Below, one piece after another: positions 10,602 to 49,728 of a stretch of DNA of 64,000 bases. The translations under genes and the position numbers were made by a program. The DNA lies in the NCBI RefSeq assembly GCF_000174435.1, contig NZ_ACJN02000002.1, forward strand, positions 62,001 to 126,000, read 5' to 3'. The DNA comes from Desulfonatronospira thiodismutans ASO3-1 (lineage in GTDB: Bacteria; Desulfobacterota; Desulfovibrionia; Desulfovibrionales; Desulfonatronovibrionaceae). Under the pieces are notes generated by a model. It ran no database searches, was not told where the DNA came from, and worked only from the letters and a program-made list of their open reading frames with translations. Position 1 is the stretch's first letter, and each line of letters opens with the position of its first letter.

Positions 10602-10716
10602 AATTCACCTCTATTGAGCAATGGCAGTGAGAATTGCCCGGTTCAGGTATGAACAAAAGAAGATAACCTAAAAAGATGTTTTAAGACTTGAGTGTTCTTG
10701 CTACAAGGAGATCATA

Positions 10717-10767
10717 ATGGATTTCAACCAGGAAGTCATCTTTTTTTTGTCTTGGTTATTTTTTTAG
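10717..10767 (+). pseudogene. tiny plus-strand ORF resembling the start of the surface-protein family
   Basis: AAGGAG is correctly spaced before an ATG that opens MDFNQEVIFFLSWLFF and then stops. The first residues resemble the start of the gene at 3983 (MSIQFNQDLEI). A strong ribosome site on a 16-residue ORF suggests a truncated gene start, here in the opposite orientation to its relatives. A leader peptide is the alternative. Confidence 0.3.
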
Positions 10768-10867
10768 GGTGAAAGAAACTTCCAGGCAGCCCATAAAATG
10801 CTATGCATAAAATGGGCAATTAGGGGGCGTAATTGCTCACATCAGGCAATGCATGCAATGGGGCAGT

Positions 10868-10905
10868 AAAAGGCCCCACCCTGGGATAAGCAGGTGGGGC
10901 CTTTT
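10868..10905. terminator. bidirectional terminator hairpin
   Basis: AAAAGGCCCCACC pairs perfectly with GGTGGGGCCTTTT across a 12-base loop. It lies just after the stop codon of the Pmp-like frame (10927) and gives a T-run on both strands. Confidence 0.85.
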
Positions 10906-10926
10906 GGAGGTTAATTTGCAGTGGGA

Positions 10927-15100: not shown

Positions 15101-15734
15101 CGGGATCGGCATCCGGGATGCCGAATCCGCCAAGAGTATAGCCATCTGATGTGTCCACATCGTCAGGGACCACGTCCTGTTCCAGGTAAAGATCCAGTTT
15201 TGGGGCATCGCTGAACTCCATCTGTACATGCTGCCATTCGCCCCCGGCTGTCCGGGCATAGACATGATTATGGTCCTCCTGCTCCTGGGTGACGGTCAAG
15301 TCCTCCAGATCCTGGGATTCGATCCAGCCCTGGCCGTGGGGGTTAATTTCGCTGGTATCCACCACCCCGCCATCAACAACGTTGTTCTGATCATCCAGCT
15401 TTCCCGTCCATATCTGCAGCCACTCAGGAGGATCGGTAAACACATCGCTTGCTGTCTGATGTGCTGAATCTACCTGGGCGTGTTCCCAGTCTTCCCCGTG
15501 AGGCTGCCAGTACAGGGTCTTCCCGGCGGCGTCATGCAGGGAGACATCGCTGATTTCATCCCGCATGGCCCAGCCGTTGCCATGCTCGGTATCCTGAACA
15601 AACCCGCCCAGCCAGTCCTGCTCGGTCTCCTCGCCCAGCAACAACCGATACCAGTTTGAGGCATACTCGGGGATCTCCAGCAGATCTTTAAAGGACTGGC
15701 CCAAATAGGCCTGGGATGCAGAAAACTTGATCAT
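12102..15734 (-). CDS. large secreted protein with cadherin, PPC and CARDB domains (N-terminal part)
   Basis: The ATG at 15734 is preceded by AGGAGG; the 22 codons further upstream are unlikely to be used. The 1210 residues begin with two shared modules (ASNWYRLLLG...GNGWAM; EWLQIWTGKLDDQN...GQGWIESQDL). A cadherin-like repeat follows at about 183-280 (DYQVTGGADQDVFTIQNGGLVF). Two PPC-type domains lie at about 290-505 (DYYSFELED, GVYYVNVYEYLG; DYYTFTLTEQG). An acidic unrecognised middle and CARDB-like domains at about 1000-1170 complete it. There is no signal peptide. The frame stops soon after the start of what should be a beta-helix, because of an apparent one-base deletion, so the product as sequenced lacks its C-terminal export region. 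Confidence 0.8.
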   Translation of the reverse strand: MIKFSASQAYLGQSFKDLLEIPEYASNWYRLLLGEETEQDWLGGFVQDTEHGNGWAMRDEISDVSLHDAAGKTLYWQPHGEDWEHAQVDSAHQTASDVFTDPPEWLQIWTGKLDDQNNVVDGGVVDTSEINPHGQGWIESQDLEDLTVTQEQEDHNHVYARTAGGEWQHVQMEFSDAPKLDLYLEQDVVPDDVDTSDGYTLGGFGIPDADPEDSFDYQVTGGADQDVFTIQNGGLVFEAGTEIDYHAQSEYEVEVTGQDQDGNESIETFTVYVTYADGAGNSRAEAREIGVLSQGDTFEHSEDVGRLGDHADYYSFELEDNLDVAVEASGQDETRNAMGLRLYDSQGSLISHSNQDNDQESIAVTLEEGVYYVNVYEYLGRSEDYDLSIRADTFRTADSPEKAMEIGELSPGDSREHSVEVFDRIVREDYYTFTLTEQGQVDISMLFDEDLDQNLGFRILDSDEEHIEFDVSDTGEAFLSQELEAGDYYIEAWPVHGSHEYELNVDVNEPGGTLEDFSSEAGDTELNKTAADKATASNQKKEYFQEESDSLGTEQMDYDFSQSYTENSSLSTENDSSNILNFSDDSIGMWAGEEGVSLDKTFDDFLLDETIEGSPIFETASHELSYNYHTSIKAGLLAELNLETGHLDLDYPVDMDPGVPETVSSGQSFSVDTSDYSLTEATLQSNAPNPNDFGFSVDLIPPQLEMSVSDISLDAPLWSPASSFEYSGFDVDIAPAGDPISLVDGTLGDFELDQDFGPVGFEMGMPTGLELESQPVSSHTLDPVSTQGDDYGTTDDSFVNLGLSLTGLAQNAFGFPDLLESSYDFGVAELGYTVADVSANLGLTFAQDFTFEPGEVEVSMQTQDGQVQTGQLGDDFTFDAPEDSGSMDIDATYTLNGEINNNTGVMPNGSITADVLDAHLEILDFVDIGMDPLYSDEFPDGGWDALDEPLWLYENTFDLELEEDVTYQTEIGDDLPAHLSIDSFGDVSVQESQTVTVAAAVENTGDRETTQNISLSVDDVHLEEEFTIPAGDTRDISFDLDTAEHGLDIGEYDLELDTGDESESVTLEVLPADDESDDDFLEIYDISISPESPGVGESFSVKVKGFGAQSADAVNPSVTLAIPKDDYEHTFNPASLDDGQTEEVIFLEGIVDAGEYKAEVTVDAVNAQSVTEQIEFAIGGSDQDVHYVVTDYEELDFALQDKEIWPGMNW

Positions 15735-15988
15735 AATTTCCTCCTTTTGCGTGCTAAAGCCTGGGTTTAAGAATAAGCCCAAAAATCCATCAACACCCAT
15801 TCAGGGGATCAGCAGCGGGGTCATAAGAGGCAGTGAGGAGAGGGAAGGAGCATCCGGGAGCAGGAATGGATGCTGAAGGACAGGAATACGACAAACGTCA
15901 AGGAACTTGGGGAACAAATTTACTCAAATAAAGACAAAAAATCAAGGGTATAAAAAGAACAAATTCCAGGCGGCAGGAAGGGCTGGAT

Positions 15989-16217
15989 TCAATAAATATC
16001 CTCCGGGTGAATCCATCCGCCACCCTCGCCAACGTGCTCGGTGTCTACCAACTGACCCTGGTCATCCTTACCAGTCCACAAACGCACATAATCTGCATCT
16101 GTTGCGGAAAAGTCCCCGAAATTTAAAGTTATATCTTCCTGGGCTGCCCTGAGATCATCCTCCGGAAAGTTTATGCAAACGTATCTGGATCCGGGATCTC
16201 CGAGTATCTGCTTACTC
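15989..16217 (-). pseudogene. out-of-frame C-terminal continuation carrying a shared module
   Basis: In another frame, immediately beyond the stop of the gene at 16171, the minus strand encodes YVRLWTGKDDQGQLVDT and EGGGWIHPED before TGA at 15989-15991. This is the first half of the shared module. Inserting one G into the G-run at 16217-16219 fuses it to the upstream gene. The module itself stops before its AGHNTLYVQ half, so the 3' end is also truncated. Confidence 0.65.
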
Positions 16218-17838
16218 CCAGAACATCCAGAACTGGCTCTTCATGCCCCTGAGTTGCTGAATCGAGTTCTCCGTAAACGCCCGAATCCTCTTCCTGGTCA
16301 GCTATAATCAGATTCTGAAAATTGCTGATGCTGATCTCCATAAAGCTTTCGGCTTGAGTCAAAATCAAGGTATTGCTCCCTTCGCCGCCGTCCAGCTCCG
16401 CTCCCTGAGCAAAGCTTTCCGGATCAGCCACTACAGTGGTATCTTTCTGGCTGCCCTGTATCCTGGTCAAACTATCCTGTTCCACCCCGGAAAGATCAAC
16501 TTCCATTTCCCCTTCAAGCTCCCCTGCATCCACAATCTCCAGATCGCCTTCTACCCACGGAAGTTCCAGGTCACCCCGTCCTGATACGCTGATCTCTTCC
16601 AACTGAGGCACATCCTCCAGGAACAAACTATCACCCATCTTTAGATGCAGGCTTTTTACATCCGGAGTTTCCTCCAGACTCAAATAACCCGCTTTGAGAA
16701 TCTCCAGGTTTAACTCAGCAATACTTCCGACCCGCAATACAGCTGGATCGCCTTCTTCTCCCAGGGCCTGGGTGCTGAGCAGGGTCAGGTGATCATTGTC
16801 CTCTTCGTCGGGGCCGGCCAGAAATTCAAAAGTCATATCCCCTGTGTAATCCGTGGTAATGGTGATGCCTCTTTCTAAGTTGTACAGGTCTACCTGCTGC
16901 CCCTCAGTCTTGAGGGTATAATGCTCTGCATCCTGCACCCCAGTAGCGTCAAAAGCCACATCCCGGTTGTCCGCGTGAATAATAATGCTGGATATATCAG
17001 TTACCCCTCCGCTGTTGCTGAAGCCCTCAAAATCAGTGGTCATCCTGGCAATATACAGGGTGTTCTCACCGCCGCCTCCATGAATAAAGTCATCCGGATT
17101 CAGGGTGGTTTCGCCGTCCGCGCTGCGCAGGACCTCGCCTTGGATCACATAATCTTCATCAGAGAGCTCCAGATAATTTTTATCGTCCTCCTTATCCTGG
17201 GGCATTTCATGAGCAGGAGCCAAAAAATCCACTCCTTCGGTCAATTCGATAAACGTGCCCCCCACATCCCAGCTGACCCAATCCAGGAACTGGTTCCCGT
17301 TATAGGTCTGGACCCAGATGGAGGCAGAGTCCGATTCTTTAATATCACCCAGAGAGATCCCGTGTTCGTGCAGCTCATCCTCCCGGAGCCAGCCTCCATC
17401 ATTTCCGAACGGCTCCCAGTGGGCCTGGCCCTCCTGTTCTGTACGCAACAACACCCGGAACCAATATTCCTCGGTAAGGTTCCTGGCAGTAAACATCTCG
17501 TGCAGGGATGTTTCAGGACCAACAGCGCTGGTGCGGTATTGGGAAGTGGCCGTGGAAAAATCCACTTCGCTGCCCTGCCAGGAGCCTGTCCCTGCATCGG
17601 CTGCTGCCGGGCGGACCCACAACTCAGTGTGTCCGTATTGCGCGAAATCCAATTTAAGATCATGGAGATCCTCAGTTCGAATCCAGCCGTTACCGATTTC
17701 AGAAATGCCAGCTGTATCCACCAGTCGGCCTTCATGATCAGATCCTGTCCATAGCTGAACCCAACCCGCATCAACAACCTCCACCAGTTCTCCAAATGTC
17801 TGCGTTTCTTCGGCAATGGACTTAAAAAGAACTTTCAT
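16171..17838 (-). CDS. secreted surface protein with shared N-terminal module and isolated RTX-like motifs
   Basis: The protein has 555 residues. The N terminus is a shared module (GWVQLWTGSDHEGRLVDT, GNGWIRTEDL, YGHTELWV), followed by a second divergent copy to about residue 200 (YWFRVLLRTE, GGWLREDEL). The rest is a beta-rich region opening with HGGGGENTLYIARM and closing with LDGGEGSNTLILTQ. These look like single RTX/S-layer type GGxGxNTL motifs rather than a calcium-binding array. No signal peptide is present. GAGAGG precedes the ATG. The C terminus is probably displaced by a frameshift near 16217 (see the fragment at 15989). It lies 130 bases beyond the glycan operon in the same orientation and may be read from it or from its own promoter. 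Confidence 0.75.
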   Translation of the reverse strand: MKVLFKSIAEETQTFGELVEVVDAGWVQLWTGSDHEGRLVDTAGISEIGNGWIRTEDLHDLKLDFAQYGHTELWVRPAAADAGTGSWQGSEVDFSTATSQYRTSAVGPETSLHEMFTARNLTEEYWFRVLLRTEQEGQAHWEPFGNDGGWLREDELHEHGISLGDIKESDSASIWVQTYNGNQFLDWVSWDVGGTFIELTEGVDFLAPAHEMPQDKEDDKNYLELSDEDYVIQGEVLRSADGETTLNPDDFIHGGGGENTLYIARMTTDFEGFSNSGGVTDISSIIIHADNRDVAFDATGVQDAEHYTLKTEGQQVDLYNLERGITITTDYTGDMTFEFLAGPDEEDNDHLTLLSTQALGEEGDPAVLRVGSIAELNLEILKAGYLSLEETPDVKSLHLKMGDSLFLEDVPQLEEISVSGRGDLELPWVEGDLEIVDAGELEGEMEVDLSGVEQDSLTRIQGSQKDTTVVADPESFAQGAELDGGEGSNTLILTQAESFMEISISNFQNLIIADQEEDSGVYGELDSATQGHEEPVLDVLGVSRYSEIPDPDTFA

Positions 17839-25315: not shown

Positions 25316-25342
25316 GTGTTAACCTTAAACCGGACATCAATC

Positions 25343-26563
25343 ATGAAAAAAAGAGTCTTAATTCTTGGTGGAGACGGATTCTGCGGCTGGCCCACCTCTC
25401 TTTACCTCTCCCAACAGGGGTATGAAGTGACCATAGTCGACAACATGTCCCGACGCATGATCGATATTGAGCTGGGATGCGATTCCCTGACCCCAATCTC
25501 CAGTATCTTTAAAAGAATTGATCGCTGGAAGGAATTGACCGGTAAAGATATTGACTTTTACAATTTCGATATTTCCCGCAACTATCACCGCCTGCTGACC
25601 CTGCTCAAGGAATTCGAGCCGGACACCGTGGTTCATTTCGCAGAACAGCGGGCGGCTCCATACTCCATGAAATCTTCATACCATAAGCGATATACCGTGG
25701 ACAACAACCTCAACGGAACCAACAACCTGCTGGCGGCAATCGTGGAATCCAAGCTGGACACACATGTTGTTCACCTGGGTACTATGGGGGTTTACGGTTA
25801 TCAGACAGCTGGGCTCAAAATCCCGGAAGGTTATCTAAAGGTAAAAGTGGAGACCAGAGAAGGGGAAAAAGAACTGGACATCATGTACCCCCCCAGTCCA
25901 GGCAGCATTTACCACATGACCAAAACCCAGGATGCATTACTATTCTACTTTTACAACAAAAACGACGGACTAAGGGTAACTGACCTGCATCAGGGAGTTG
26001 TCTGGGGGACTGAGACAGACGAGACGAGAATGGACGAGACGCTGATCAACCGCTTTGATTATGATGGAGACTATGGCACTGTGCTGAACAGATTTCTTGT
26101 GCAGGCAGCTGTGGGACACCCTCTAACCGTGCATGGTACAGGGGGACAAACCAGAGCCTTCATCCACATCAAGGATACAGTGCAGTGTATCAAAATGGCA
26201 ATAGAAAATCCTCCAGACTTCGGCTCAAGCGTAGAGATATTCAATCAGGCCACGGAAACCCACTCAGTAGGATACTTGGCTGAACTGGTTTCCCAAAACA
26301 CCGGTGCTGAGATCCGATACTACAATAACCCCAGAAAAGAAGCCACGGCTAATGAACTAAAAGTCAAGAATGATAAATTTTTAAATTTAGGACTTAGTCC
26401 CGTGAAGTTAAAAAACGGACTGATGGACGAAGTAATGTATATTGTAGATAAATACAAGTATCGATGTGACATGAGCAAGATACCTTGTACCTCCTGCTGG
26501 TGCGAGGATATGGAAGTAGACAGAGAGGGCAGATCAGCAACCGAAAACAGAACAGTTAATTGA
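25343..26563 (+). CDS. sqdB: UDP-sulfoquinovose synthase (SQD1/Agl3 family)
   Basis: Makes UDP-sulfoquinovose from UDP-glucose and sulfite. It aligns well along its length with the plant SQD1 family: GGDGFCGWP, VDNMSRRMIDIELG, SLTPISSI, RWKELTGK, HFAEQRAAPYSM, LGTMGVYG, the Y-x3-K pair YHMTK, DLHQGVVWG, NRFLVQAAVGHPLTV and GGQTRAFIHI. ATG at 25343 starts the conserved sequence; a GTG at 25316 is possible. It is 406 residues. It leads the plus-strand glycan genes and a GalU-like enzyme at 36448 could supply UDP-glucose. The product could go to sulfolipid or, given the context, to a surface glycan. Confidence 0.92.
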   Translation: MKKRVLILGGDGFCGWPTSLYLSQQGYEVTIVDNMSRRMIDIELGCDSLTPISSIFKRIDRWKELTGKDIDFYNFDISRNYHRLLTLLKEFEPDTVVHFAEQRAAPYSMKSSYHKRYTVDNNLNGTNNLLAAIVESKLDTHVVHLGTMGVYGYQTAGLKIPEGYLKVKVETREGEKELDIMYPPSPGSIYHMTKTQDALLFYFYNKNDGLRVTDLHQGVVWGTETDETRMDETLINRFDYDGDYGTVLNRFLVQAAVGHPLTVHGTGGQTRAFIHIKDTVQCIKMAIENPPDFGSSVEIFNQATETHSVGYLAELVSQNTGAEIRYYNNPRKEATANELKVKNDKFLNLGLSPVKLKNGLMDEVMYIVDKYKYRCDMSKIPCTSCWCEDMEVDREGRSATENRTVN

Positions 26564-26674: not shown

Positions 26675-28480
26675 ATGCCCTTAAAAACCTTAGGCAGCTG
26701 GCTTGTCGGACGCCGGGATCTACCTGCGCAAGCCAAACGTTACGCGCAGACCGTCATCTGGTTGTACAGGTCGGTGTTTCACTTTCGCCCATACACTGCT
26801 GCTTTGGCTATAGCCACCAATGTGTCCGGAACCCTTCTCAAAGGTGCATCTCTGACACTGTTGGTCTATTTTGCCAGCATGCTGGAGAGCGACACTCCTT
26901 TTACTTTTAACCAGATAGACTTTGCCCTGCAGCCTCGCGAGCCAAGTGGTTTTGCGCTTATGGTTTTGCTCATCGGTACATTGCTGCTCTCCGGCGGGAT
27001 TGTGGTTTTTTTGGCCAATCGTATTAATATCAAGCTTGCTGTAGAATTTGCCCTGAATCTCTCCCAGCAGGTGCTGACACTTCCAGCCGGACGTCCCTCC
27101 CGGAATATAAATCCAATCGCCGGTGCCTACCCCAAGGAGATATACGCGAGATCTAGAGGCGTGATTGTAATCGCCAGGTCCATTCGCCCCCTCCTGCAAC
27201 TATTTCAGCCTCTTCTCCTTATGATAATATGTCTGGCGGCACTGATGTACATAGACCCGTTTCTGACGGCCGTAATAGCTGTGCTGGCTTTGCCCAGCCT
27301 GCTCATCCAATACCTTATCAACTATACTGCAGCCCAGAACCAGAAACTTCTAGGGAAAGCCCAGAAACGAATGCAAAGAGGCATCTGCGATATCCTGGAG
27401 AGCCTTTCCTTGGCTCCCAGGGTATCCAGGAGTGAAGAAGAAGCACTGGCAAGAGCCTATTCCAGTGAAGTGATAAGGGAATACCCCAATAGATTTATTA
27501 CCAGGGTTATGGCTCAACCCAAATCCCAGATGGTCAGTGATATGCTCATAGCTGTAATGGCCATGATCATTGTTCTTTACCTCGGGATCAGCGCCTTGGC
27601 TGGACAGATCAGCTGGGCCTTGGTAGTCGGTTACATAATTTTTGCCAGGGTGGGGATGACCTCCCTGCGCGGGTTGCTGGGCACTATTACCGGCTTTGCC
27701 CGGCACTACCCCCGTGCACGCAAAATGTACGAACTGCTGAGCAGCAAACCAATGGAGACAAGGCTGAACCAGGACGTGCTGAAAATCACACGTAGCGCTC
27801 GGAACACCCCGGGTGACCTCAAAAGTATAGACTTTAAAAGAGGCGATACCTTAGGTGTATTGTCTCCTGTACCATTTACACGTTACAATATCTATGCTTG
27901 GGGAGATGCACTGGGTTGGCCCAAAGGCGTTGACAGGAACAAAATTTTGGGAGCCATAGCCTGCATTCCAGATGCGACAAAAAGTCGCCCTGGAGGCAGC
28001 CTTAGGGAGCTGCTGGGCTGTGATGAGTACATTTCTACGAATGAAATACAAAGAATTCTGGAAGGTATTGTTACAGCTCCGCTGAAATCTGCCGTGGCAG
28101 ATATTGACTTTGACTCTCCTCTTGACGAACATACATGGAACAAACTACCTCCTGTTTTGCGCAGCCACCTGTTGCTGGAACAGGGTATAAAATCCGGCAA
28201 GGATATTTTTCTTGTTGAATATCAAGTAGTTCAAAAAGCTGAAGACGAATATTTGCGGCTCTGGTGGAAGAGGGCTTCTTCTCGGTTTGTCCTGATCAGA
28301 TATAATATGCAGGAAAATTTCGGGCACTGCGGGGAAAAAGGATTGCTGGCCATGCGAACAGACAGGGCCAGGGCCGTAATGTCCCTTGAATGGGCCAGGA
28401 TGAATCATGAAAAACTCAGCGCCTGGATCGCTAACGCCAGGGTGATCGAGGAAGAAGATGAAGAAGACCCGATGGAATAA
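26675..28480 (+). CDS. ABC-exporter-like membrane protein with degenerate ATPase domain
   Basis: The first ~330 residues have the layout of an ABC exporter membrane domain, with hydrophobic segments such as LMIICLAALMYI and LIAVMAMIIVLYLGISAL. The following ~220 residues occupy the place of an ATPase domain (ALLSS...; DFKRGDTLGVL). But the Walker A site reads SPVPFTRYN instead of GxxGxGKST, no LSGGQ is present, and the Walker B position is IFLVEYQV. ATP hydrolysis by this chain is therefore very unlikely. It may be a structural partner of another ABC protein or a glycolipid-handling membrane protein. The gene is isolated by about 110-190 bases on each side. Confidence 0.7.
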   Translation: MPLKTLGSWLVGRRDLPAQAKRYAQTVIWLYRSVFHFRPYTAALAIATNVSGTLLKGASLTLLVYFASMLESDTPFTFNQIDFALQPREPSGFALMVLLIGTLLLSGGIVVFLANRINIKLAVEFALNLSQQVLTLPAGRPSRNINPIAGAYPKEIYARSRGVIVIARSIRPLLQLFQPLLLMIICLAALMYIDPFLTAVIAVLALPSLLIQYLINYTAAQNQKLLGKAQKRMQRGICDILESLSLAPRVSRSEEEALARAYSSEVIREYPNRFITRVMAQPKSQMVSDMLIAVMAMIIVLYLGISALAGQISWALVVGYIIFARVGMTSLRGLLGTITGFARHYPRARKMYELLSSKPMETRLNQDVLKITRSARNTPGDLKSIDFKRGDTLGVLSPVPFTRYNIYAWGDALGWPKGVDRNKILGAIACIPDATKSRPGGSLRELLGCDEYISTNEIQRILEGIVTAPLKSAVADIDFDSPLDEHTWNKLPPVLRSHLLLEQGIKSGKDIFLVEYQVVQKAEDEYLRLWWKRASSRFVLIRYNMQENFGHCGEKGLLAMRTDRARAVMSLEWARMNHEKLSAWIANARVIEEEDEEDPME

Positions 28481-28673: not shown

Positions 28674-29738
28674 ATGCCCATACTTTTTATACCGACAAAA
28701 AATCGGCCAGCATCATTATCCTGGGTGCTTAACTACTTAGCACGCTTTTACCCGGATACCCGAGTTGTGATAGCAGATGGCAGTGATGAGTGTTATAAGG
28801 CTTCCAACATGTCCTCAGTTGAGAAGATGCAGTCTGGATTGAGTGTGAATTATAAAACTTATTCACAAGAGACTGGCTTTATCGATCGCTGCCTGGATGC
28901 ACTGAATTCCGAACCTGAAGAATATATAGTCTTTGGAGCAGATGATGATTATCCAAATATGGAATTAATGTTCAAAGGAGAAAAATTTCTTAAAAAGAAC
29001 CCGGACTTTTCTACTGCAATGGGAGCACGTGTAGTTTTGAATCTTAAAAAGGACGAGGTCATCCGCTCCAGACTTGCGGTGGTTCGCCCGGTAGAATGTG
29101 CTGAAGCATGGCAAAGAATGAAAATTTATTCTAAATGGTCCTTTGCCACTACCTATGCAGTGACCAGACGAAGACATCTCCTAAAGAGGTTTAAACGCCT
29201 TAAGCAACTTGCTCCTATAGGCTTTTACGATTTCATGGTGGGGCTTCACGATGCAGCATGCGGAAAAATAAAAGCCTATCCAGAAGTCGGTTTTTTTACT
29301 ACACGTACTTACACACACAACTTCATCAGGAATACTGATAAACTTTTTTTTATTCATAACAGTAAAGATATATTAAAATTGCAAGAAATCGTCAGAGAGG
29401 ACCTTGAGTTCGAGGGGTTGCTTACAACAGAAGAGACAGAAAAACAAAGTGAAATAATAATGTTGAACCGAATAGCCGAGCTTACTGGAAGAGACTTCAG
29501 AAAGCTGGCCAATTTCTCAAAAAGTAAACTTTTTAATGATCATATAGTGCAGAGCCAATACAAGTTATATAACAACATTTTCGATCTAAGTACCAAGGAA
29601 GGAAAAAAGTATTCTAAGCACTTACGTTACATATATCAAGCCATGCAGTCTATTGTTGAATCCAGCAACAGACTAGAGGGCAAATTTGTAAATACTCTTG
29701 ACGGCAAGCCTGATCAAGAAAAACAAGGGAGCGCTTAA
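28674..29738 (+). CDS. TIGR00180-type glycosyltransferase
   Basis: The N terminus LFIPTKNRPASLSWVLNYL and the metal-site-like FGADDDYPNM (about residue 85) are typical of GT-A folds of the TIGR00180 group, often found in bacterial polysaccharide loci. It is 354 residues with no membrane segment. It ends 5 bases before the epimerase gene, so the two are probably co-transcribed. Donor and acceptor cannot be deduced. Confidence 0.75.
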   Translation: MPILFIPTKNRPASLSWVLNYLARFYPDTRVVIADGSDECYKASNMSSVEKMQSGLSVNYKTYSQETGFIDRCLDALNSEPEEYIVFGADDDYPNMELMFKGEKFLKKNPDFSTAMGARVVLNLKKDEVIRSRLAVVRPVECAEAWQRMKIYSKWSFATTYAVTRRRHLLKRFKRLKQLAPIGFYDFMVGLHDAACGKIKAYPEVGFFTTRTYTHNFIRNTDKLFFIHNSKDILKLQEIVREDLEFEGLLTTEETEKQSEIIMLNRIAELTGRDFRKLANFSKSKLFNDHIVQSQYKLYNNIFDLSTKEGKKYSKHLRYIYQAMQSIVESSNRLEGKFVNTLDGKPDQEKQGSA

Positions 29739-30737: not shown

Positions 30738-31499
30738 ATGCTTATTGTCAATAACGACTTTGTATACATTCACCACCCCAAGACTGGAGGCACATTTGTC
30801 ACAGAGATGCTGCGCAACATAGCCTTTGAAACAGACGACCTGAACATACTGGAAGTCCCTGTACCCAAACATGCCGGAGTCAGAACAATACCTCCAGAAT
30901 TCCAAAGACTCCCTATTGTAATCAATGTCAGAAATGTCTTTGAGCATTATGTTTCACGCTATACTTTTCGCTGGTGGGCAGAGCCAAATCGCGCAAAAAA
31001 TATCTTCGATCTGGACAAGGTAGAAAGAGAATACCCCGGGTTCCCTGATCTGAGCTTTTCGGATTTCTTACGCATGTTCAACCAGTGGCATCTACGGCTG
31101 AACGAAAGCAAGAACAGGGCCCAGATATTAACTAACCGTGAACTAGGCTATAACTCCCGGGAATTTATCCGATTGAGCAGCTATGATCCCATGAAATTGC
31201 TGGAAACGTTTGATGCATTAACTGATCAGGAACTCAAGGAAAAGTTTAAAGAGTTTCACTTCTTAAGAACAGAAAATCTAAGCCAGGATTTATATAACTT
31301 GCTAAAAACATATGGTGTCAGGGAAAACTACCTGACTTTGTTTCTGAATGCTCAACCCATCTTGCCCAAAAAAGGGGGAAGAGGGGAGTTGAAACAGACT
31401 TGGCCCGAGTATTTCAGCCCTGAAGACATCGATTTCGTACTTAGAAGAGACCGTCTTTATTTTCGGCTGTTTCCGTATATGCAGCCAAAAAAACGTTGA
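30738..31499 (+). CDS. sulfotransferase family protein
   Basis: The PAPS 5'-phosphosulfate loop IHHPKTGGTFVT lies at about residues 12-23 and the 3'-phosphate motif VINVRNVFEHYVSRYTF at about 60-75. These two motifs define PAPS-dependent sulfotransferases, which move sulfate to hydroxyl or amino groups of glycans. The length is 253 residues and no membrane anchor is seen, so it probably acts in the cytoplasm on a precursor. It is the first of four sulfotransferase genes in a row. Confidence 0.85.
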   Translation: MLIVNNDFVYIHHPKTGGTFVTEMLRNIAFETDDLNILEVPVPKHAGVRTIPPEFQRLPIVINVRNVFEHYVSRYTFRWWAEPNRAKNIFDLDKVEREYPGFPDLSFSDFLRMFNQWHLRLNESKNRAQILTNRELGYNSREFIRLSSYDPMKLLETFDALTDQELKEKFKEFHFLRTENLSQDLYNLLKTYGVRENYLTLFLNAQPILPKKGGRGELKQTWPEYFSPEDIDFVLRRDRLYFRLFPYMQPKKR

Positions 31500-31548
31500 A
31501 ATGGCACAAGAAGAAATTGGATGCTGATTCTGAATTCAGGAGCTACTA

Positions 31549-32289
31549 ATGTATTCACCTTTAATTATATTTACACATATACCCAGAGCAGGTGGCACAT
31601 CTATGTGGAAAACCTTTCGTAGGGTGTATGGCAAGCGCGTCAAAAGAATAAAGGGCCATGGCCTGCTTAAAACTAGAGAAATCACAGCACAGATTCTAAA
31701 AGAAAGTCCTCATGACTATGATGTAGTGGGAGGACATGTGCGGTATGGTGTTGGAGAAAACTGCACTGATCGTCCTTATCAATATTTTACAGTCTTGCGT
31801 GATCCTACTCATGCTCTATTATCACGATACTATAAGCTGTTACAGCCTGAAGTCCAGGAAAGAAAAGCAAAAAGAGATCCAGGAGATTATGAAGATAACC
31901 TCAGAAAGATTAAAAAGATAGTAAGCTCTCCTGAAGAACTGCTACAAAACAGCAACCATTTGTTATTGCGTTTTATACTAGGCATAGATGAAGATAATGA
32001 AACTCAGGTCACCAGGGACCACTTGGAATTAGCAAAAATCAGATTAAAGCACGAATATGTCTGTTTCGGGCTTGTGGAACGCTACCAGGAAAGCATGGAG
32101 CTCATATCAAGATCTTTGAGGTGGGAAGCCATCCCTATGGCTGAACAATGTAATACAGGCGGGAACAGACCCGACGTGCATGACCCCAAACTTATTGAGT
32201 TGGGCCGGCAGGTCAATGCCCTGGATTACGAACTTTATTCCTATGCTGAACAGCTTTTCAGTGAGCGTTTACGCCAAATCAGATCTTAA
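31549..32289 (+). CDS. carbohydrate sulfotransferase-like protein (copy A of a pair)
   Basis: FTHIPRAGGTSMW (PAPS loop) and YFTVLRDPTHALLSRYY (3'-phosphate motif) match the heparan sulfate 2-O/6-O sulfotransferase-like (Sulfotransfer_2) group. The protein is 246 residues. It is clearly paralogous to the protein at 33245: long identical runs include the PAPS loop and RPYQYFTVLRDPT. Eleven bases separate it from the next sulfotransferase gene. Confidence 0.87.
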   Translation: MYSPLIIFTHIPRAGGTSMWKTFRRVYGKRVKRIKGHGLLKTREITAQILKESPHDYDVVGGHVRYGVGENCTDRPYQYFTVLRDPTHALLSRYYKLLQPEVQERKAKRDPGDYEDNLRKIKKIVSSPEELLQNSNHLLLRFILGIDEDNETQVTRDHLELAKIRLKHEYVCFGLVERYQESMELISRSLRWEAIPMAEQCNTGGNRPDVHDPKLIELGRQVNALDYELYSYAEQLFSERLRQIRS

Positions 32290-32300
32290 AGGGATCCCGG

Positions 32301-33110
32301 ATGTCACTAGCTTACTTGAAATACAAACTGGGCACCAAAAGGCTCAAAAACATAATTCATCCTTCAATAAAGGATGGGTACATTTATATTTCAAACCCCA
32401 AGGCAGCCTGTTCCTCAATAAAGCTGTATCTGGCTAGGTGCATGACAAACAACCCCGAATTCACACCTGTAAGTCTGCATAAAAGAAAACACCTGCCCTT
32501 TGATGATCCTGGCAACCTGACTAATGATAATCTTGAAAGACTGTTCAATGGGAACTATTTTGTTTTTACGTTTGTAAGGCACCCTTTAAAAAGGGTGGTC
32601 TCAGCTTATGGAGACAAAATTGCTGGCAACAGATTCCAAAAAAAAGAAATACTTGCCCTACTTGGGAACAACCCGGATGAACTTGAAAAACCAGTATCCT
32701 TTGATGAATTTGTCAAAGCAATCACCTCCCAAAAACCTGAAAAGTTAAACCCTCACTGGCGTCCTCAAGTTCATAACCTTTACCCGAATATTATTAAATA
32801 TAATTTCATAGGCCACCTGGAAACATTTGACACTGATTTCAACTATGTCAGAAATAAGCTCAACCTTCCAGTTTTTCCGGTAAAACGTCAAAACGTCAAA
32901 TCGTTCAAAGCAGAGCCAGAAGCACTTCTTAATCCATTTAATAGATTCAGGCTGGCACGCTTGTATGCCAAAGACTTTGTCCGTTTTGGTTACCGCCCCC
33001 AAGGAATAGAATATCTGGGAGTGTTGCTTGGATATCTGCCCGGTAATACCGGTTTGATGCTGAGAAGGGGCAAGAAATTGCTGACAAAATTGATTCCAGC
33101 AGGAAAGTAA
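32301..33110 (+). CDS. carbohydrate sulfotransferase-like protein
   Basis: The PAPS loop reads YISNPKAACSSIK (about residue 31-43) and the 3'-phosphate motif FVRHPLKRVVSAY (about 91-103). The KxxCSS form is typical of chondroitin/HNK-1-type carbohydrate sulfotransferases. The protein is 269 residues and sits between the two paralogous copies at 31549 and 33245, but is itself of a different subgroup. Confidence 0.85.
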   Translation: MSLAYLKYKLGTKRLKNIIHPSIKDGYIYISNPKAACSSIKLYLARCMTNNPEFTPVSLHKRKHLPFDDPGNLTNDNLERLFNGNYFVFTFVRHPLKRVVSAYGDKIAGNRFQKKEILALLGNNPDELEKPVSFDEFVKAITSQKPEKLNPHWRPQVHNLYPNIIKYNFIGHLETFDTDFNYVRNKLNLPVFPVKRQNVKSFKAEPEALLNPFNRFRLARLYAKDFVRFGYRPQGIEYLGVLLGYLPGNTGLMLRRGKKLLTKLIPAGK

Positions 33111-33244
33111 ATACTCATCTGTTATGAAACTGTCACGGACAGTCGGCAGTTGACAGGCCTTTGTTCAGCGACTCTTTGAGAGTGCCTTTATGAGGTAAAT
33201 GCTAAAAGCCTTTTTCCCGATCACGCCCTGACAAGAGATGATAA

Positions 33245-34018
33245 ATGAAACAAAAACATCTTTTTTCTGAAAACCCTTTGATAATATTCACCCATATTCC
33301 CCGGGCCGGTGGAACTTCCATGTGGCAAATTTTCCGATCTGTTTACGGTGAAAGGGTCAAACGCATATCAGGAAAAGGCCCTGCCGGGACAAGGGAGGCG
33401 GTTGCAAAGCTTCTTAAGAGCGAGCCCTTTGGTTACGATGTACTTGGTGGACATGTACCCTGCGGAATAGGGCAGAACTGTGTTAACCGCCCGTATCAAT
33501 ATTTTACGGTCTTGCGCGATCCCACTAATGTAGTGCTCTCCAGGTATTACAAAAGGACTGATCCACAGGTGCAGCAAAGGAAAGCTTATAACCAGCCAGG
33601 TGAATTTGAAGAAAACCTGAGAAAGATGAAAAATAGATCCGTGATGGGACCGGAGGAATTTATCAGGAAGAATAATAATCCCCTGATAAGATTTCTAAGT
33701 GATGACGAAATCCGGACGGGGGAAAATCTGATTACTAGAGAGCACCTTGAAGCAGTCAAAAGCAGGCTCCAGAAAGATTACATCTGCTTAGGGTTTGTGG
33801 AGCGCTACCAGGAAAGTGTGAAGTTGATCGCTCAAGCTTTGGGCTGGAAAAAAGTGCCCCAAGCCCAGCAGCGCAACACCGGTGGAAACAGGCCCCGAGA
33901 GTACGACTCAGCACTTGTTGAACTCGGTCGGGAGATTAATAAACTGGACTACGAACTTTATTCCTTTGCTGAAAAATTGTTCGACGGATGGCTGAAAGAC
34001 AGCCTTACCAAGCGGTAG
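33245..34018 (+). CDS. carbohydrate sulfotransferase-like protein (copy B of a pair)
   Basis: Same motifs as copy A: FTHIPRAGGTSMW and YFTVLRDPTNVVLSRYY, with the same C-terminal NTGGNRP segment. The 257 residues share roughly 60% identity by eye with the protein at 31549, so this is an old tandem duplication interrupted by the gene at 32301. Sequence differences between the two suggest different acceptor positions. Confidence 0.87.
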   Translation: MKQKHLFSENPLIIFTHIPRAGGTSMWQIFRSVYGERVKRISGKGPAGTREAVAKLLKSEPFGYDVLGGHVPCGIGQNCVNRPYQYFTVLRDPTNVVLSRYYKRTDPQVQQRKAYNQPGEFEENLRKMKNRSVMGPEEFIRKNNNPLIRFLSDDEIRTGENLITREHLEAVKSRLQKDYICLGFVERYQESVKLIAQALGWKKVPQAQQRNTGGNRPREYDSALVELGREINKLDYELYSFAEKLFDGWLKDSLTKR

Positions 34019-34163: not shown

Positions 34164-36443
34164 ATGTTACGTTCTGACGTCAATGACTTAAAAAATCAGA
34201 GCTCTGAAGAAGAGACTCCTGAGCGGGAAATACTGGCCCTTCGTCGGCGTAAAAGCCTTTACCCGCAGACCCTGGAACAGATGAAAAATATCTGGCCTTT
34301 TGCCAAGCCCATGCCTGCTGGACCAGAAGATACCCGGAAAGCTTCTGTAGCCGTTGTGGTCAACTTTTCCCTCAAAACTTCCGGATATGAGTTCGTTTCA
34401 AGGTATACGGCCGAGCTTGTTTCCCGTTTGGTCCGGAACGGGGCGAAGCCGGTCCTGCTGGATCTAGCGAATGAACAGCGAAACGACAATACACGCATTG
34501 CAGTTGAATCCCTTTGGCCACAGGGATCAATCGTATATGAACAAGTGGAAGAGCCTGATGTTCCTCCCTCATATGGCCCCTTGGCCAGGACCGCCAGCAT
34601 GGCGTATCGGCTCTATGAATGGCTCAAGAAACGCGACTTTGACGCTGTGCACGGCCCTGATAATTTAGGCGTTCTCAGCCTTTGTCTTCGGGCCAGACAA
34701 CAGGGCATCGCCTTTGCAAAGACAAGATTCGTTGTGCATCCAGCAGATGCTCTTTTGCAAAAATGTCTGGATGAATATCAGAATCTCAACAATGTGCTCT
34801 CCCTGCCCAGAATATACATGGAATCGAGCAGTCTTGAGATGGCCGATACCGTACCCGTGACCGGCCGTTACGGCCTGCGCAGACTTCTGGAGGCCGGGAT
34901 TAATCTCAGGCCGGGCCAGGTTGAACACTGCCCTATACCTCATGATTCCAAAGCAGCCAGAGAGCAATTCCAGGGGGTGCAGTCCGGGGAATTCCGCCGG
35001 GTGCTCTGTCTGCCCGGGGTTTCCAGGCGGGGAACAGCCTTGTTCTGCAAAGCCCTGAACCGCGGTTTTCCAGGGACCTCTGCTTCATTCGCCGTGGAAT
35101 TTGCTGTTCCAGATGACTATCAAAAAGATTTGGCCTCCTATGCAAAGGCCCTGCTTTCAGGCCGGAGTGAGCAGACTGTTGTCAGATCCGTGCCGGACCG
35201 CAGATCGCTGGTACGCCTGTTGAGCGAGAACCCGGATACCTTATGCGTGTTCCCGGTTATTGACGAATGGAACATTTACCAGTTGATGGACCTGGCTGCG
35301 GCCGGGCTGCCGCTTGTGGCAGCGGATCAACACAAGGCCCGAGATCTTCTGGACGAAGAAACAGCAAAACATTCTACCTGCGCGCCTCTGCCCGATGCCA
35401 TCGCCAGGCACATCCGTGAAGTACTCAAAGGCAGGGCATGTTATGCCCGGGTGCAGAGCGAGGGAGACCTTCCTGCATCATGGATCAGCCCCGGTGAACC
35501 GAAAACAAGCACCGAAGAACAAGGCGAGCCCCCTCTGGTTACCGTATGTCTCATGCATTTCGAACGACCTCACCTGCTGGAACAGGCCCTGGCATCGGTT
35601 GAAAATCAAGTTTATACCAATCTAGAGGTGGTGCTTGTTGATGACGGCAGCCTGAAGAAGGAGTCCATCCAGAAATTAGAAGAGCTCAAGGCCAGGTTCC
35701 AGGAAAAAGGATGGAACATCATACGGCAGCAGAACCGCTTTCTGGGAGCAGCGAGAAATACTGCAGCCATGGAGGCTCGCGGCCGGTATCTGTATTTTCT
35801 GGACGACGACAACATTCTAAAACCTCACGCCCTGGAAACCATGATCAGAGTTGCCGAACATATGCCTGCCGACATTGTGACTGCCCTGTCCGACGCTTTT
35901 GAAGGGGACACCCCGCCAGCCTCAGATGCCACTGCATCCAGAAGGATTATTCAGATAGGAGATGACCTCTCCTACGGCATCTTTCGCAATTCCTTTGGAG
36001 ACAGCAACGCTCTGGTCCGCAGGTCTGTATTCCTGGAACTGGGCGGGAATACTGAAGACTATGCCGTGGGCAAGGATGATCAAGAATTTTTTGCCCGGGC
36101 GGTTCTCAGCGGCTGCAGGCTGACCATTGTTCCCGAAGCTCTTTACTGGGCGAGACAGATGTCAGCGCGCCTACGCACCCTGCACTTCAACCCCAGGGCC
36201 GGCCATGTCCGGGTCTGCCGGGCCTATCTGCCTCATGTTCCTCCCAAACTGCGTCCCCTTCTGTTATTATCCACCGGATTGATGGAAGAGTCTTTTGAAG
36301 GCAGGGATATTACGCTGCGGGGTTTTATTCTGCACAAGATCAAGCGCTTTGCCCGCACCCGCTTTGGAGCATGGCTGAGATTCGGCATCCTGGGACCTTT
36401 TCTTCGCTGGAGACGAGAATTGCGAATGAAAAATATCAGGTGA
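34164..36443 (+). CDS. two-domain glycosyltransferase (GT4-like plus GT2)
   Basis: The protein has 759 residues. The first ~430 resemble a GT-B glycosyltransferase: an N-terminal Rossmann part (VVVNFSLKTSGYEFVSRYTAEL) and a C-terminal part with NPDTLCVFPVIDEWNIYQLMDLAAAGLPLVAAD. From about 456 a GT2 domain starts with PLVTVCLMHFERPHLL, then VVLVDDGS and the metal motif YFLDDDN. A basic helical tail ends it. Such fusions add two sugars in series. The next gene starts within a few bases. Confidence 0.8.
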   Translation: MLRSDVNDLKNQSSEEETPEREILALRRRKSLYPQTLEQMKNIWPFAKPMPAGPEDTRKASVAVVVNFSLKTSGYEFVSRYTAELVSRLVRNGAKPVLLDLANEQRNDNTRIAVESLWPQGSIVYEQVEEPDVPPSYGPLARTASMAYRLYEWLKKRDFDAVHGPDNLGVLSLCLRARQQGIAFAKTRFVVHPADALLQKCLDEYQNLNNVLSLPRIYMESSSLEMADTVPVTGRYGLRRLLEAGINLRPGQVEHCPIPHDSKAAREQFQGVQSGEFRRVLCLPGVSRRGTALFCKALNRGFPGTSASFAVEFAVPDDYQKDLASYAKALLSGRSEQTVVRSVPDRRSLVRLLSENPDTLCVFPVIDEWNIYQLMDLAAAGLPLVAADQHKARDLLDEETAKHSTCAPLPDAIARHIREVLKGRACYARVQSEGDLPASWISPGEPKTSTEEQGEPPLVTVCLMHFERPHLLEQALASVENQVYTNLEVVLVDDGSLKKESIQKLEELKARFQEKGWNIIRQQNRFLGAARNTAAMEARGRYLYFLDDDNILKPHALETMIRVAEHMPADIVTALSDAFEGDTPPASDATASRRIIQIGDDLSYGIFRNSFGDSNALVRRSVFLELGGNTEDYAVGKDDQEFFARAVLSGCRLTIVPEALYWARQMSARLRTLHFNPRAGHVRVCRAYLPHVPPKLRPLLLLSTGLMEESFEGRDITLRGFILHKIKRFARTRFGAWLRFGILGPFLRWRRELRMKNIR

Positions 36444-36447
36444 GTGA

Positions 36448-37218
36448 TTGTTTATTGTGGATACCATGATCATCCCTGCAGCTGGATTCGGCACCAGGAT
36501 GCAGGAGTTCACCAGAGGAAAAAGCAAGGAGCTTCTTGATGTTGGAGGCAAGCCCGCAATCCAGTACGCTCTGGAAGAAGCCGCAGCCGCAGGAATACGG
36601 GTTGTAGGCATAGTCCTTCGTAAGGGGAAGGAGGAGATCGGTGATTATATTATACACAGTAAAAAGCTGTCCTGGCTGAGAGAGAGTCTGGATCTTCATT
36701 TTTTCCACCAACAGACAATGAACGGTGAATGCGGCGCGATTCTAGCAGCTGGTGAAATCGTTGAGCACCGTCCGTTTATCGTGCACTATCCGGATAATAT
36801 TATACTGAACAGTCAGGGTCTGGTGACCAACTCGCTGCGAAAGGGCTATATTGAACTTGGCTCGGACCTAGTCTCCCTGGTGGCCGCAGGAAAATGTGAA
36901 AATCATCCCAGTTCACAGCCCATGAGCATGGAACATGCATTTGATGAAGTATATCTGCTTGAGCCCAGGATGGAAACAAGGCATTTTTCGGCCGGACTGC
37001 GAACCGCTGGAGTATATGTTGCTTCTCCCACTTTTCTGGATGCATGCAGTGTTCTCTTGCAGAAAAAAGAAGACAAAGAGGTCAGAGACAGGGATGTTCA
37101 CTGCCTGCTTGCAGAACAAGGTCACCAGATTTACGGGTTGAAGGTCAAAACCAAAATACTGGATGTAGGCAGTCCGAAGGGTTATCTTGAAGCCAGAAAA
37201 CTCTTGGATGACAATTAG
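36448..37218 (+). CDS. GalU-like nucleotidyltransferase
   Basis: Resembles UTP-glucose-1-phosphate uridylyltransferase: IIPAAGFGTRM, KSKELLDVGGKPAIQYALEEA, IVHYPDNIIL, and YLLEPR. The length of 256 residues is slightly short for GalU. AGGTGA lies four bases before a TTG at 36448; GTG at 36457 or ATG at 36466 are possible starts. It could make the UDP-glucose needed by the sulfoquinovose synthase. Confidence 0.78.
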   Translation: MFIVDTMIIPAAGFGTRMQEFTRGKSKELLDVGGKPAIQYALEEAAAAGIRVVGIVLRKGKEEIGDYIIHSKKLSWLRESLDLHFFHQQTMNGECGAILAAGEIVEHRPFIVHYPDNIILNSQGLVTNSLRKGYIELGSDLVSLVAAGKCENHPSSQPMSMEHAFDEVYLLEPRMETRHFSAGLRTAGVYVASPTFLDACSVLLQKKEDKEVRDRDVHCLLAEQGHQIYGLKVKTKILDVGSPKGYLEARKLLDDN

Positions 37219-37258
37219 TTGTCTATTGTCGGAGCAGGACATGACAACCGCTTTCACT

Positions 37259-37558
37259 ATGGCGGGCTATGCCCGCAACCCAATAAATAAAAGAGTTTTT
37301 TGACAGGATTAGCAGGATTAAGAGATTGATTAAGAGAAAAACATTTTTGTCCTGGCCGGAAGCCAGGCCAAAAGGTAATCACTCGCCTTTGGCGATGGCT
37401 AATGCAATCTGCGGCATCCGGCCGCTGATTGCTTATCCTGTCAATCCTGTTAATCCTGTTAATCCTGTCTAAGGCCTGCCACGCGTCCTGCCACGCTTCT
37501 TAGCGTGGTTCGCGTGGTTATTGTATTTTATGACAGGGCTTCAGGAGTAAGCCACTAA
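37259..37558 (+). repeat. long interspersed repeat, copy X
   Basis: Nearly the same sequence occurs in inverted orientation at 56361-56580. Shared blocks run from GCCCGCAACCCAATAAA through GTCCTGGCCGGAAGCCAGG, CTGCCACGCGTC and GACAGGG, to GAGTAAGCCACT. Copy X has about 65 extra bases in the middle and tandem TTAATCCTG units. There is no coding capacity. It fills the gap between the GalU-like gene and the next glycosyltransferase. Confidence 0.8.
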
Positions 37559-37582
37559 TCAATACACCGGGATATAGTTGTT

Positions 37583-38758
37583 TTGCCAAAAATTGGTGTT
37601 TACATGGTCCATGCTGCGGATAAAACAGGTGAACCCCGAAGGCTGGCCAATCTGGTTAAAGGGTTGGCTGATATGGGAGTGTCTGTTTGTCCGATTGTCT
37701 CCACAAAGGGAGTGTGGAATCTTGAGTTTGAAGAAAGCGGTGCGCATTGTCTGAAAATTCCTCCTGGAACAATTCGGGAAAACATTTCCCTGAAAAAACT
37801 TAAAAAAAATCCGCTTTTGTTATTCCGTTGTACTGCTGATCTTGTCCGCAGCAATTTGTTCGCTTATCGCATAGTCAGGCAGGAACACCTTTCGGCAGTT
37901 ATACTCAGAGCCCCGAAAGGACCGCTGTATATGGGTATCGGCGCTCGTGCTGCCGGAAGCAAAATTATATGTGATCTGGATTATGTTGCCACATACCGCA
38001 TGCCGGTACGCCTGCTCACAGCATACGCAATACTGCTGAGCAGATTGGTAACTGCTCAATACAAGAAAACCCGAAAAGACCTCGGACTGCTTTCTCGGAG
38101 CATTTTGAGAAAAAAATCCTTCGCATCCATTTTGCCCGGAATAGACAGCGAACCTTTACGTTCTTACCGTGAAAAGCGCGATACCGGCTACAGAAGCCAA
38201 AAGAATCACCTCACTATATTGACCGCCGCAACAATTTTTCCCCGCAAAAACCAGCTGACCCTGGTTCATGCGGTTCAGCAGGCTGCCGCTGCCTGTCCTC
38301 AATACAGTTTAACCCTGATTTTATGCGGCCGTGTCAAGGACCGGGCATACGAAAAAAATATTCAAGACCTGATAAAAAAATCGCCTCCCAATGCACGCTG
38401 CCTGCTTCTAGGATGGCGGAACGACATCGGAGAAATTATGTCAGATGTTGATATATTTGCTTTGCCCTCTCAGGATGAAGGAGTGCCCAACTCTGTCCAG
38501 GAAGCGATGTACATTGGGCTACCGGTTCTTGCCGCTCCAGTGGGGGGCATACCGGAAATTATAAAGGATGGAGTCAATGGATGGCTGGTTCATGACAACA
38601 ATGCCTACGGATGGAAAAAAGCTATTGTCAAGAGCATATCTCATCAGGAGTTAATTAAACAGATGAGCCTTAAGGCACAAAAAGACGCAGACGCATTCTT
38701 TTCCCACAGGGAGTGGGCTAAACGCTACTGGAAAACAGTGTGCGAATTGATTGAATAA
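37583..38758 (+). CDS. GT4-family glycosyltransferase
   Basis: A GT-B fold enzyme of 391 residues. The N-terminal part reads KIGVYMVHAADKTGEPRRLANLV; the C-terminal donor site has LTAATIFPRKNQLTLVHAV, LLGWRNDIGEIMSDVDIFALPSQDEGVPNSVQEAM and GLPVLAAPVGGIPEII. The conserved E residues of the EX7E region are in the DEGVPNSVQEAM block. The start is a TTG at 37583; an ATG 21 bases later would cut the conserved first strand. It lies after the long repeat, so may have its own promoter. Confidence 0.85.
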   Translation: MPKIGVYMVHAADKTGEPRRLANLVKGLADMGVSVCPIVSTKGVWNLEFEESGAHCLKIPPGTIRENISLKKLKKNPLLLFRCTADLVRSNLFAYRIVRQEHLSAVILRAPKGPLYMGIGARAAGSKIICDLDYVATYRMPVRLLTAYAILLSRLVTAQYKKTRKDLGLLSRSILRKKSFASILPGIDSEPLRSYREKRDTGYRSQKNHLTILTAATIFPRKNQLTLVHAVQQAAAACPQYSLTLILCGRVKDRAYEKNIQDLIKKSPPNARCLLLGWRNDIGEIMSDVDIFALPSQDEGVPNSVQEAMYIGLPVLAAPVGGIPEIIKDGVNGWLVHDNNAYGWKKAIVKSISHQELIKQMSLKAQKDADAFFSHREWAKRYWKTVCELIE

Positions 38759-38814
38759 TGATTGTATACTCTTAAGCACGTTTTGTCTTCAATAATACTG
38801 GAAAATAAATATAA

Positions 38815-40041
38815 ATGAAGTGGTTACAATCAAATTTAATTGTTATTTCCGCCAATACCTCCTGGTATATTTTCAACTTCCGCCTCCGAATGATCAGGGA
38901 GCTGATAAATCAGGGATTTGAGGTGGCAGTAGTCGCGCCTGAGGACGAATACTTGTCCAGGCTGGTGCAGGAAGGCTGCCGCATACTGCCTATAAATTTG
39001 CTAAGCAAGAGCATTAATCCTCTGGTTGAAATCAAAGCCATATACCAGTACGTGCGCATTTACTCCTTACTACGCCCTGCTGCAGTTCTGCACTTCACCC
39101 CGAAACCCAACATTTACGGTTCTCTGGTCGCGAAAATGCTTGGGATACCGTACATCAACAATATTGGCGGGCTGGGAACTGCATTTGCCGGCAATGGCTG
39201 GTTATGCAGTATGGCCAGAGTCATGTACAGATTTTCACAGCGATCAGCAGTAAAAATTTTTTTCCAGAACAAAGATGACCTGGATATGTTTATCCGTTGC
39301 GGCATGGCAAGACCGGAACAGGCAGAATTGCTGCCCGGTTCCGGTGTGGATCTGGAAAAATTCAATCCAGAATTGGGGGATTCAGGGGTTCATGGTAAGC
39401 TAACATGCAGGCAATCAAATGACAATAGTAATCAGCCTTTGCATGAAGGACAGGAATACCTTTTTCAGGCACCTGAAGACAATGTTGTTTTTCTCCTCAT
39501 TGCCAGGCTGATATGGGATAAGGGAATCGGAGAATATGCTGAGGCTGCCAGGGCGATCAAGGCAAAGTATCCAGATGTTGAATTCATGCTTCTGGGATTC
39601 GTGGATGATAATAACCCCGGGGCCGTTCCGGAGAAGAGAATCCGGGAATGGGAGGCTGAAGGCATCCTGAAATGGGTGGGACGGCAGGAAGATGTACGTT
39701 TATTCATTGCCAGGACAGACTGTGTTGTTTTACCTTCTTACTACAGAGAGGGAACCCCTCGCTCTCTTCTGGAAGCGGCGAGCATGGGCAAGCCTTTGAT
39801 CGCGGCCGATTCCGTCGGAACCAGGGAACCTGTTGAAAACGGAATAAACGGTTTTCTCTGCCGACCAATGGATGCCATGGACCTGGCTGCCAAAATGCAA
39901 CTGATCATTGATATGGGACCTGAAAAAAGACTGGCCATGGGCATCCGCGGGCGCAAAAAAATGGAGAAAGAATACGACGAAAATATTGTGATAAAAAAAT
40001 ATATTGAAGACATAAAGGCTGTTCTGGTTAACCACCGATAA
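38815..40041 (+). CDS. GT4-family glycosyltransferase (PglA-like)
   Basis: The 408 residues match the group of GT4 enzymes that add the second sugar to undecaprenyl-linked glycans: NTSWYIFNFRLRMIRELI, HFTPKPNIYGSLVAKMLGIPYINNIGGLGTAF, LLPGSGVDLEKFNP, LIARLIWDKGIGEY and LPSYYREGTPRSLLEAASMGKPLIA. Followed 230 bases later by the initiating transferase, which fits an early role in glycan assembly. Confidence 0.87.
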   Translation: MKWLQSNLIVISANTSWYIFNFRLRMIRELINQGFEVAVVAPEDEYLSRLVQEGCRILPINLLSKSINPLVEIKAIYQYVRIYSLLRPAAVLHFTPKPNIYGSLVAKMLGIPYINNIGGLGTAFAGNGWLCSMARVMYRFSQRSAVKIFFQNKDDLDMFIRCGMARPEQAELLPGSGVDLEKFNPELGDSGVHGKLTCRQSNDNSNQPLHEGQEYLFQAPEDNVVFLLIARLIWDKGIGEYAEAARAIKAKYPDVEFMLLGFVDDNNPGAVPEKRIREWEAEGILKWVGRQEDVRLFIARTDCVVLPSYYREGTPRSLLEAASMGKPLIAADSVGTREPVENGINGFLCRPMDAMDLAAKMQLIIDMGPEKRLAMGIRGRKKMEKEYDENIVIKKYIEDIKAVLVNHR

Positions 40042-40268
40042 TGAGGTGAATGCTATACTGACTAGATCCAGCATCACCTTGCAGGATGCCTATATTTTTT
40101 TCCGGAACAAACGGGAATCATGAGCGTTTGCAAAATCTCAACTAAAAATTACGGAAAGGCGATTCCCTGTCCTGCCCTGCAAGGCAGAGGAATGCGGTAT
40201 TTTAATAACAATAAGGTCATCTTTTTTAGAACCCCGACCCTGATTCAAACCTGGATGAGACCTTCAAT

Positions 40269-42588: not shown

Positions 42589-43122
42589 TCATCCCATATC
42601 ATGCAGCTTGCTGAAGGCCCGCTCCAGGAGATTTTCCAGTTTCTGCAGCTCGCTGGCCTTTTTCTGGGCGGCCAGGCCCAGGATCACCCGAAGATCTTCA
42701 TGTATAGACGGTCTTAACAGTGTCAGACTGTAAGGACTTTCTTCCCTGCCCTCACCCTGATAAAGCCTGAAGTTTACATGGTTGACGTACATAAGCGCCA
42801 GGACTTTAAGCCAGTTTTCAGGGCGGCGGCACTTGATGCCCGGATAAGTGAGCCAGGCCTGATCAAAGGGATCCTGGTGCACCCTGAAGATAATCGGTAT
42901 GGCGCTGTCAGGTCCCAGTCCCGCCTGAAGGGCATACTTATCCAGGTAATAAAACGGCCCTTCGATAATCCACAGGTACTGATCAAAGGGTTTTAGAGGT
43001 TCCTGGTGCTGCAGACTGCTTGGCATGTCTTTGCATGTACAATCCACCAGGCAGAGTTTACAAGCTTTTTTATAGCTCATTCGGTTCAAACCATGCGCAG
43101 CTTGGAAAAGGCTCAACGCCAT
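42589..43122 (-). CDS. hypothetical protein, 177 residues
   Basis: I do not recognise this protein. It has a cysteine cluster near the N terminus (CKLCLVDCTC, residues about 21-30), an aromatic middle (YLWIIEGPFYYLDKYAL, IFRVHQDPFDQAWLTYPG) and a helical C terminus rich in leucine and lysine. Some of this resembles accessory parts of transposase/recombinase-associated nucleases, but no catalytic motif is visible. It lies among toxin-antitoxin genes and repeats, so a mobile origin is possible. Confidence 0.55.
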   Translation of the reverse strand: MALSLFQAAHGLNRMSYKKACKLCLVDCTCKDMPSSLQHQEPLKPFDQYLWIIEGPFYYLDKYALQAGLGPDSAIPIIFRVHQDPFDQAWLTYPGIKCRRPENWLKVLALMYVNHVNFRLYQGEGREESPYSLTLLRPSIHEDLRVILGLAAQKKASELQKLENLLERAFSKLHDMG

Positions 43123-49726: not shown

Positions 49727-49728
49727 GA

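Follow-up and report, generated by a model that had tools for sequence, protein, structure and literature searches.

Where an ABC exporter has a degenerate ATP site, it is usually one of two and the other is intact. The stretch of DNA analysed here (the window, 64,000 nucleotides from Desulfonatronospira thiodismutans ASO3-1) encodes a half-exporter homologue, the pseudo-ABC, in which the complete set of ATPase motifs appears to have been replaced. The locus raises the question of whether such a chain is the remnant of a transporter or retains a role in the cell, and what that role could be if ATP is not hydrolyzed. The gene and its parts are as follows.

26675-28480, plus strand: pseudo-ABC half-exporter gene, 601 aa, ATG start, recognized by fold and homology
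26789-27739, plus strand: membrane domain with six long predicted helices (residues 39-355), with Foldseek and VIA matches to type IV ABC exporters
27761-28477, plus strand: pseudo nucleotide-binding domain (NBD; residues 363-601), from hhalign (probability 95.6) and leave-one-out HMMs (26-31 bits)
27863-27889, plus strand: Walker A position by profile alignment, SPVPFTRYN (residues 397-405) versus GPSGSGKTT, with Arg403 at the Walker lysine
28136-28159, plus strand: signature position by profile alignment, W488 and then LPPVL (491-495) versus LSGGQ
28205-28222, plus strand: Walker B position, IFLVEY, with VEY (514-516) versus LDE (D to E, catalytic E to Y)
28301-28303, plus strand: H-loop position by profile alignment, Tyr543 versus His
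28442-28477, plus strand: acidic C-terminal tail (IEEEDEEDPME region), likewise acidic in the relatives

The gene is present in single copy in its genome, and its frame (26675-28480) runs through 601 codons without interruption. Coding signal is 0.236 bits/codon over the dead NBD and 0.233 over the membrane domain, and the other frames over the gene give values that are negative or near zero. Neither a broken frame nor a lost coding signal, the marks of a pseudogene, is seen in the window copy, and the view of a first-pass annotation, made from the sequence alone, that the chain is full length and openly read is borne out.

Recognition of the chain as an exporter relies on profile and structural comparison. 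Pfam gave no match of note, neither to ABC_membrane nor to ABC_tran, and NCBIfam gave sub-threshold exporter matches only (residues 82-360). A profile of the family matched the solved ABC exporters TmrAB and BmrA (E 1.6e-4 to 4e-3), and hhalign of the family against six canonical exporters (probability 95.6, E 1.1e-8) extends through the NBD; identity to canonical exporters in the profile alignment is ~14%. An AlphaFold2 model places six long helices at residues 39-72, 90-135, 154-193, 195-246, 265-308 and 314-355, with middling confidence (pLDDT 60 for the whole chain and 56 for the NBD alone) and with the Walker A half of the pseudo-NBD unresolved in the predicted structures. All 50 of the 50 matches listed by Foldseek for this model were ABC proteins (E 9e-8 to 3.5e-6), and VIA-align agreed in pointing to type IV ABC exporters, with SUR1 and SUR2 in its top rows. 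The NBD-only model matched almost exclusively ABC NBDs, weakly (best E 2.8e-3, Z ≤4.8). The chain thus combines the two parts of a type IV ABC exporter, a six-helix membrane domain and a C-terminal NBD-homologous domain; modelling and sequence comparison both point to the type IV fold for the membrane domain, in keeping with the earlier suggestion that this part is intact.

The central claim of the first-pass annotation, that Walker A, signature and Walker B are all replaced, holds in profile-profile alignment and extends to the H-loop. The motif register was read by eye from the alignment with canonical exporters, and was compared across the window copy and three relatives (G010, G147 and G238). 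Walker A (GxxGxGK[S/T]) is missing in all four members, with SRYN or SRYS at its place in two of the relatives. LSGGQ is likewise missing from the aligned position in each of the four, where a Trp and a Leu are invariant across the family, and pattern matches elsewhere fall in the membrane domain; an LSGGI in the window copy was ruled out as a signature, since it sits in the second membrane helix. The Asp-Glu pair of Walker B is found in no member (VEY in the window, VEE in G147, INH in G010, LDS in G238), and the H-loop His is retained only by G147. None of the four (0/4) has a complete motif set. Walker A and Walker B are both retained in all 17 of the other ABC exporters identified in the four genomes that carry the pseudo-ABC, and the loss is therefore specific to the pseudo-ABC. 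At the level of sequence the loss of ATPase function is well supported, and the chain would not be expected to bind ATP. G147 is the least altered member because of its VEE at Walker B and its H-loop His, and these residues (Glu-Glu and His) may allow some residual nucleotide contact.

Whether such a chain is simply decaying can be judged from its relatives. A single-protein search of 199 related genomes found two at 19-21% identity, G010 (610 aa) and G147 (589 aa). A profile search across the class brought in G238, and a search of 348 genomes of the order gave only these four carriers, the window genome included, in four genera. The window's own genome was the sole match among 395 genomes drawn from the phylum, and no relatives were found by tblastn of plasmids and phages or by scans of genome contigs with short patterns suited to close relatives only. 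At the 14-24% identity shared by the members, synonymous sites are saturated. The dead NBDs of the three relatives are 14-22% identical to that of the window; leave-one-out profiles of this domain alone recovered the missing member at 26-31 bits (E 2e-10 to 5e-12; best shuffle 5.8 bits), and a Gly-Glu pair is invariant in the pseudo-NBD family. In a tree with the 17 canonical exporters the four members form one clade in every bootstrap tree (100/100), all on long branches, which makes one ancestral loss a simpler account than four decays.

A pseudogene recently derived from an ordinary exporter would suit the rare and patchy distribution (4/348 genomes) and the frameshift that splits the G238 gene, itself either real decay or an assembly error. 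Against this stand three genera with full-length ORFs (589-610 aa), the conservation of the dead NBD, its codon signal in the window copy, which equals that of the membrane domain, and the single clade. A close homologue that keeps its motifs in such a setting had been named in advance as the sign of simple decay, and none was found among the 348 genomes of the order. We consider decay very improbable, and the pseudo-ABC probably has a working role. The suggestion of a conserved pseudo-ATPase is upheld by three homologues in three other genera, with the same kind of losses, in glycan loci and in one clade.

The surroundings of the gene suggest where this role may lie. The following features adjoin it or follow it in the window.

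25316-26563, plus strand: SqdB-like NAD-dependent epimerase, upstream neighbour, a UDP-sulfoquinovose synthase homologue below cut-off
28674-29738, plus strand: TIGR04440-type glycosyltransferase (NCBIfam), downstream neighbour
30738-34018, plus strand: four sulfotransferase-like genes (30738, 31549, 32301, 33245), the first a weak match only
34164-41945, plus strand: glycosyltransferases, a sugar nucleotidyltransferase and a WecA/MraY-type lipid-phosphate sugar transferase (40269-41945)

The order is TIGR04440 glycosyltransferase, then an epimerase, the four sulfotransferase-like genes, glycosyltransferases and the WecA-type enzyme; among the sulfotransferases, 31549-32289 and 33245-34018 are clearly similar paralogues when their translations are compared by eye. 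Between 17 and 42 kb the pseudo-ABC and the WecA-type enzyme are the only multi-helix proteins. Of the two neighbours named from the sequence, the glycosyltransferase stands; the sulfoquinovose synthase is homologous but scores 347 bits against an NCBIfam equivalog cut-off of 575.

All four carriers house the pseudo-ABC in a glycosyltransferase locus. Its G010 neighbours are a glycosyltransferase and a gene with a weak sulfotransferase match. The G147 copy is surrounded by genes for asparagine-synthase-like proteins, glycosyltransferases and sulfotransferases, and the G238 copy by glycosyltransferases and sugar-modifying enzymes, with no sulfotransferase seen in the locus. Several related glycosyltransferases are common to G147 and G238, and for two of these G010 has relatives as well. 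The proposed search for homologues with the same losses near sqdB or sulfotransferase genes gave sulfotransferases in three of the four loci (clear matches for the window and for G147, a weak one for G010); an sqdB-like gene adjoins the pseudo-ABC only in the window. Beside the G147 gene is a 998-aa protein with no Pfam match (L013:11121-14114). Two short genes of the window, 42589-43122 and 47655-48083, are matched by homologues (51% and 62%) that keep their order next to the G010 pseudo-ABC locus, which suggests that the two genomes share a genomic site with exchanged glycan genes.

Farther out, the minus strand of the window at 279-17838 encodes very large secreted-looking proteins, relatives of which, one of them 69% identical, occur within the 20 kb preceding the window; this is a set of duplicated giant proteins beside a type 1 secretion system. 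The type 1 secretion ABC pair at 48002-52320 combines a first protein with the signature LPGGL instead of LSGGQ and a canonical second one. The same pair is present in G010 (LPGGL in L037, LSGGQ in L034), and the window pair may therefore be a heterodimeric secretion ABC.

In heterodimeric exporters with a degenerate site, one composite site usually stays complete. The pseudo-ABC could be the silent half of such an exporter (like TmrAB, TM287/288 or TAP), with an active half-exporter, for instance MsbA, supplying the power. The type IV fold and the Foldseek and profile matches to heterodimeric exporters are consistent with this, and degenerate sites are common in heterodimers (PMC7756269). With Walker motifs and signature both lost, however, no site would exist in a homodimer, and pairing with an intact partner would not give a complete one. 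Nor does any ABC exporter gene adjoin the pseudo-ABC in the four glycan loci: in the window the closest are the two type 1 secretion genes ~20 kb downstream, and the sole canonical exporter found in G147 is MsbA-like and 86 kb away. Of the two hallmarks of a degenerate heterodimer, the adjacent partner gene is lacking and the complete composite site would be lacking as well; a conventional partner is unlikely on both grounds, and we regard this explanation as improbable. As neither kind of dimer would have a complete site, ATP-driven export through this chain is unlikely, which leaves two possibilities: that the membrane domain works independently of ATP, or that the chain as a whole acts as a scaffold or regulator.

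The explanation we favor, tentatively and at somewhat short of even confidence, is that the pseudo-ABC is a conserved half-exporter acting in surface-glycan assembly without ATP hydrolysis, as a translocator or as a platform. The chain would have kept its type IV membrane domain, and with it membrane localization and probably dimeric assembly, and its NBD would have become a non-catalytic structural domain. It would serve the surrounding assembly line for a surface glycan, probably sulfated, a role and substrate to which the gene neighbourhood is the only link. It might be a nucleotide-independent translocator of a lipid-linked glycan, or a membrane platform on which the NBD-derived domain gathers cytoplasmic glycosyl- and sulfotransferases. 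In favor of the assembly role, homologues of Wzx (PF01943) and Wzm (PF01061) were absent from the four pseudo-ABC loci and present elsewhere in the four genomes. In the window genome the only Wzx (PF01943) matches are short frames of 119 and 218 aa (G000 C1:1280205-1280483, C1:105569-106093), possibly broken flippase genes.

The stronger form of the first option, in which an ABC-exporter fold moves lipid-linked sulfated glycans without nucleotide and replaces Wzx in these loci, seems to us unlikely.

A regulator or sensor is a possible explanation to which we give less weight than to the assembly role. Here the NBD-derived domain would bind a ligand (e.g. a nucleotide sugar or an enzyme) and control glycan synthesis with no transport. 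Pseudo-enzymes are known in such pathways, as with the pseudokinase EcpK in exopolysaccharide synthesis (PMC12004946), and the invariant Trp, the Gly-Glu and the acidic tail suggest a retained interaction surface. No ligand site was identified in the pseudo-ABC, however, and the membrane domain is also retained, which speaks against a pure regulator.

A family that can form no complete site yet keeps the whole exporter chain would be a natural test of ATP-free movement or organization of substrates by this fold, and bacterial glycan assembly would gain a pseudo-enzyme. Such proteins go unannotated because no Pfam model detects them. The exporter fold is known; a literature search of partial coverage turned up neither a half-exporter reported to lack all motifs nor a description of such loss across a conserved family in glycan loci.

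Among known systems, PglK and MsbA transport lipid-linked sugars and, with BmrA, are homodimeric type IV exporters that share with the pseudo-ABC a six-helix membrane domain and a C-terminal NBD-derived domain in one chain, whereas the pseudo-ABC has Walker A, signature, Walker B and H-loop replaced, is ~14% identical and has no Pfam match. By its location in glycan loci it may move lipid-linked glycans across the inner membrane as PglK/Wzk does. TmrAB, TM287/288 and TAP1/2 have the same fold and a dead or weak catalytic site, but in each of them one composite site is complete and a partner gene or chain exists; the pseudo-ABC has lost both Walker motifs and signature, and no partner gene lies nearby. 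SUR1 and SUR2 use the ABC fold for regulation rather than transport, and their VIA-align rank reflects fold only; they do bind nucleotides and, as full-length transporters, are coupled to a K+ channel. In the degenerate site of yeast Pdr5, Walker A, Walker B, H-loop and signature all deviate, with the same change of the H-loop His to Tyr (PMC7756269), but Pdr5 has a second, canonical site on the same polypeptide and a reversed domain order.
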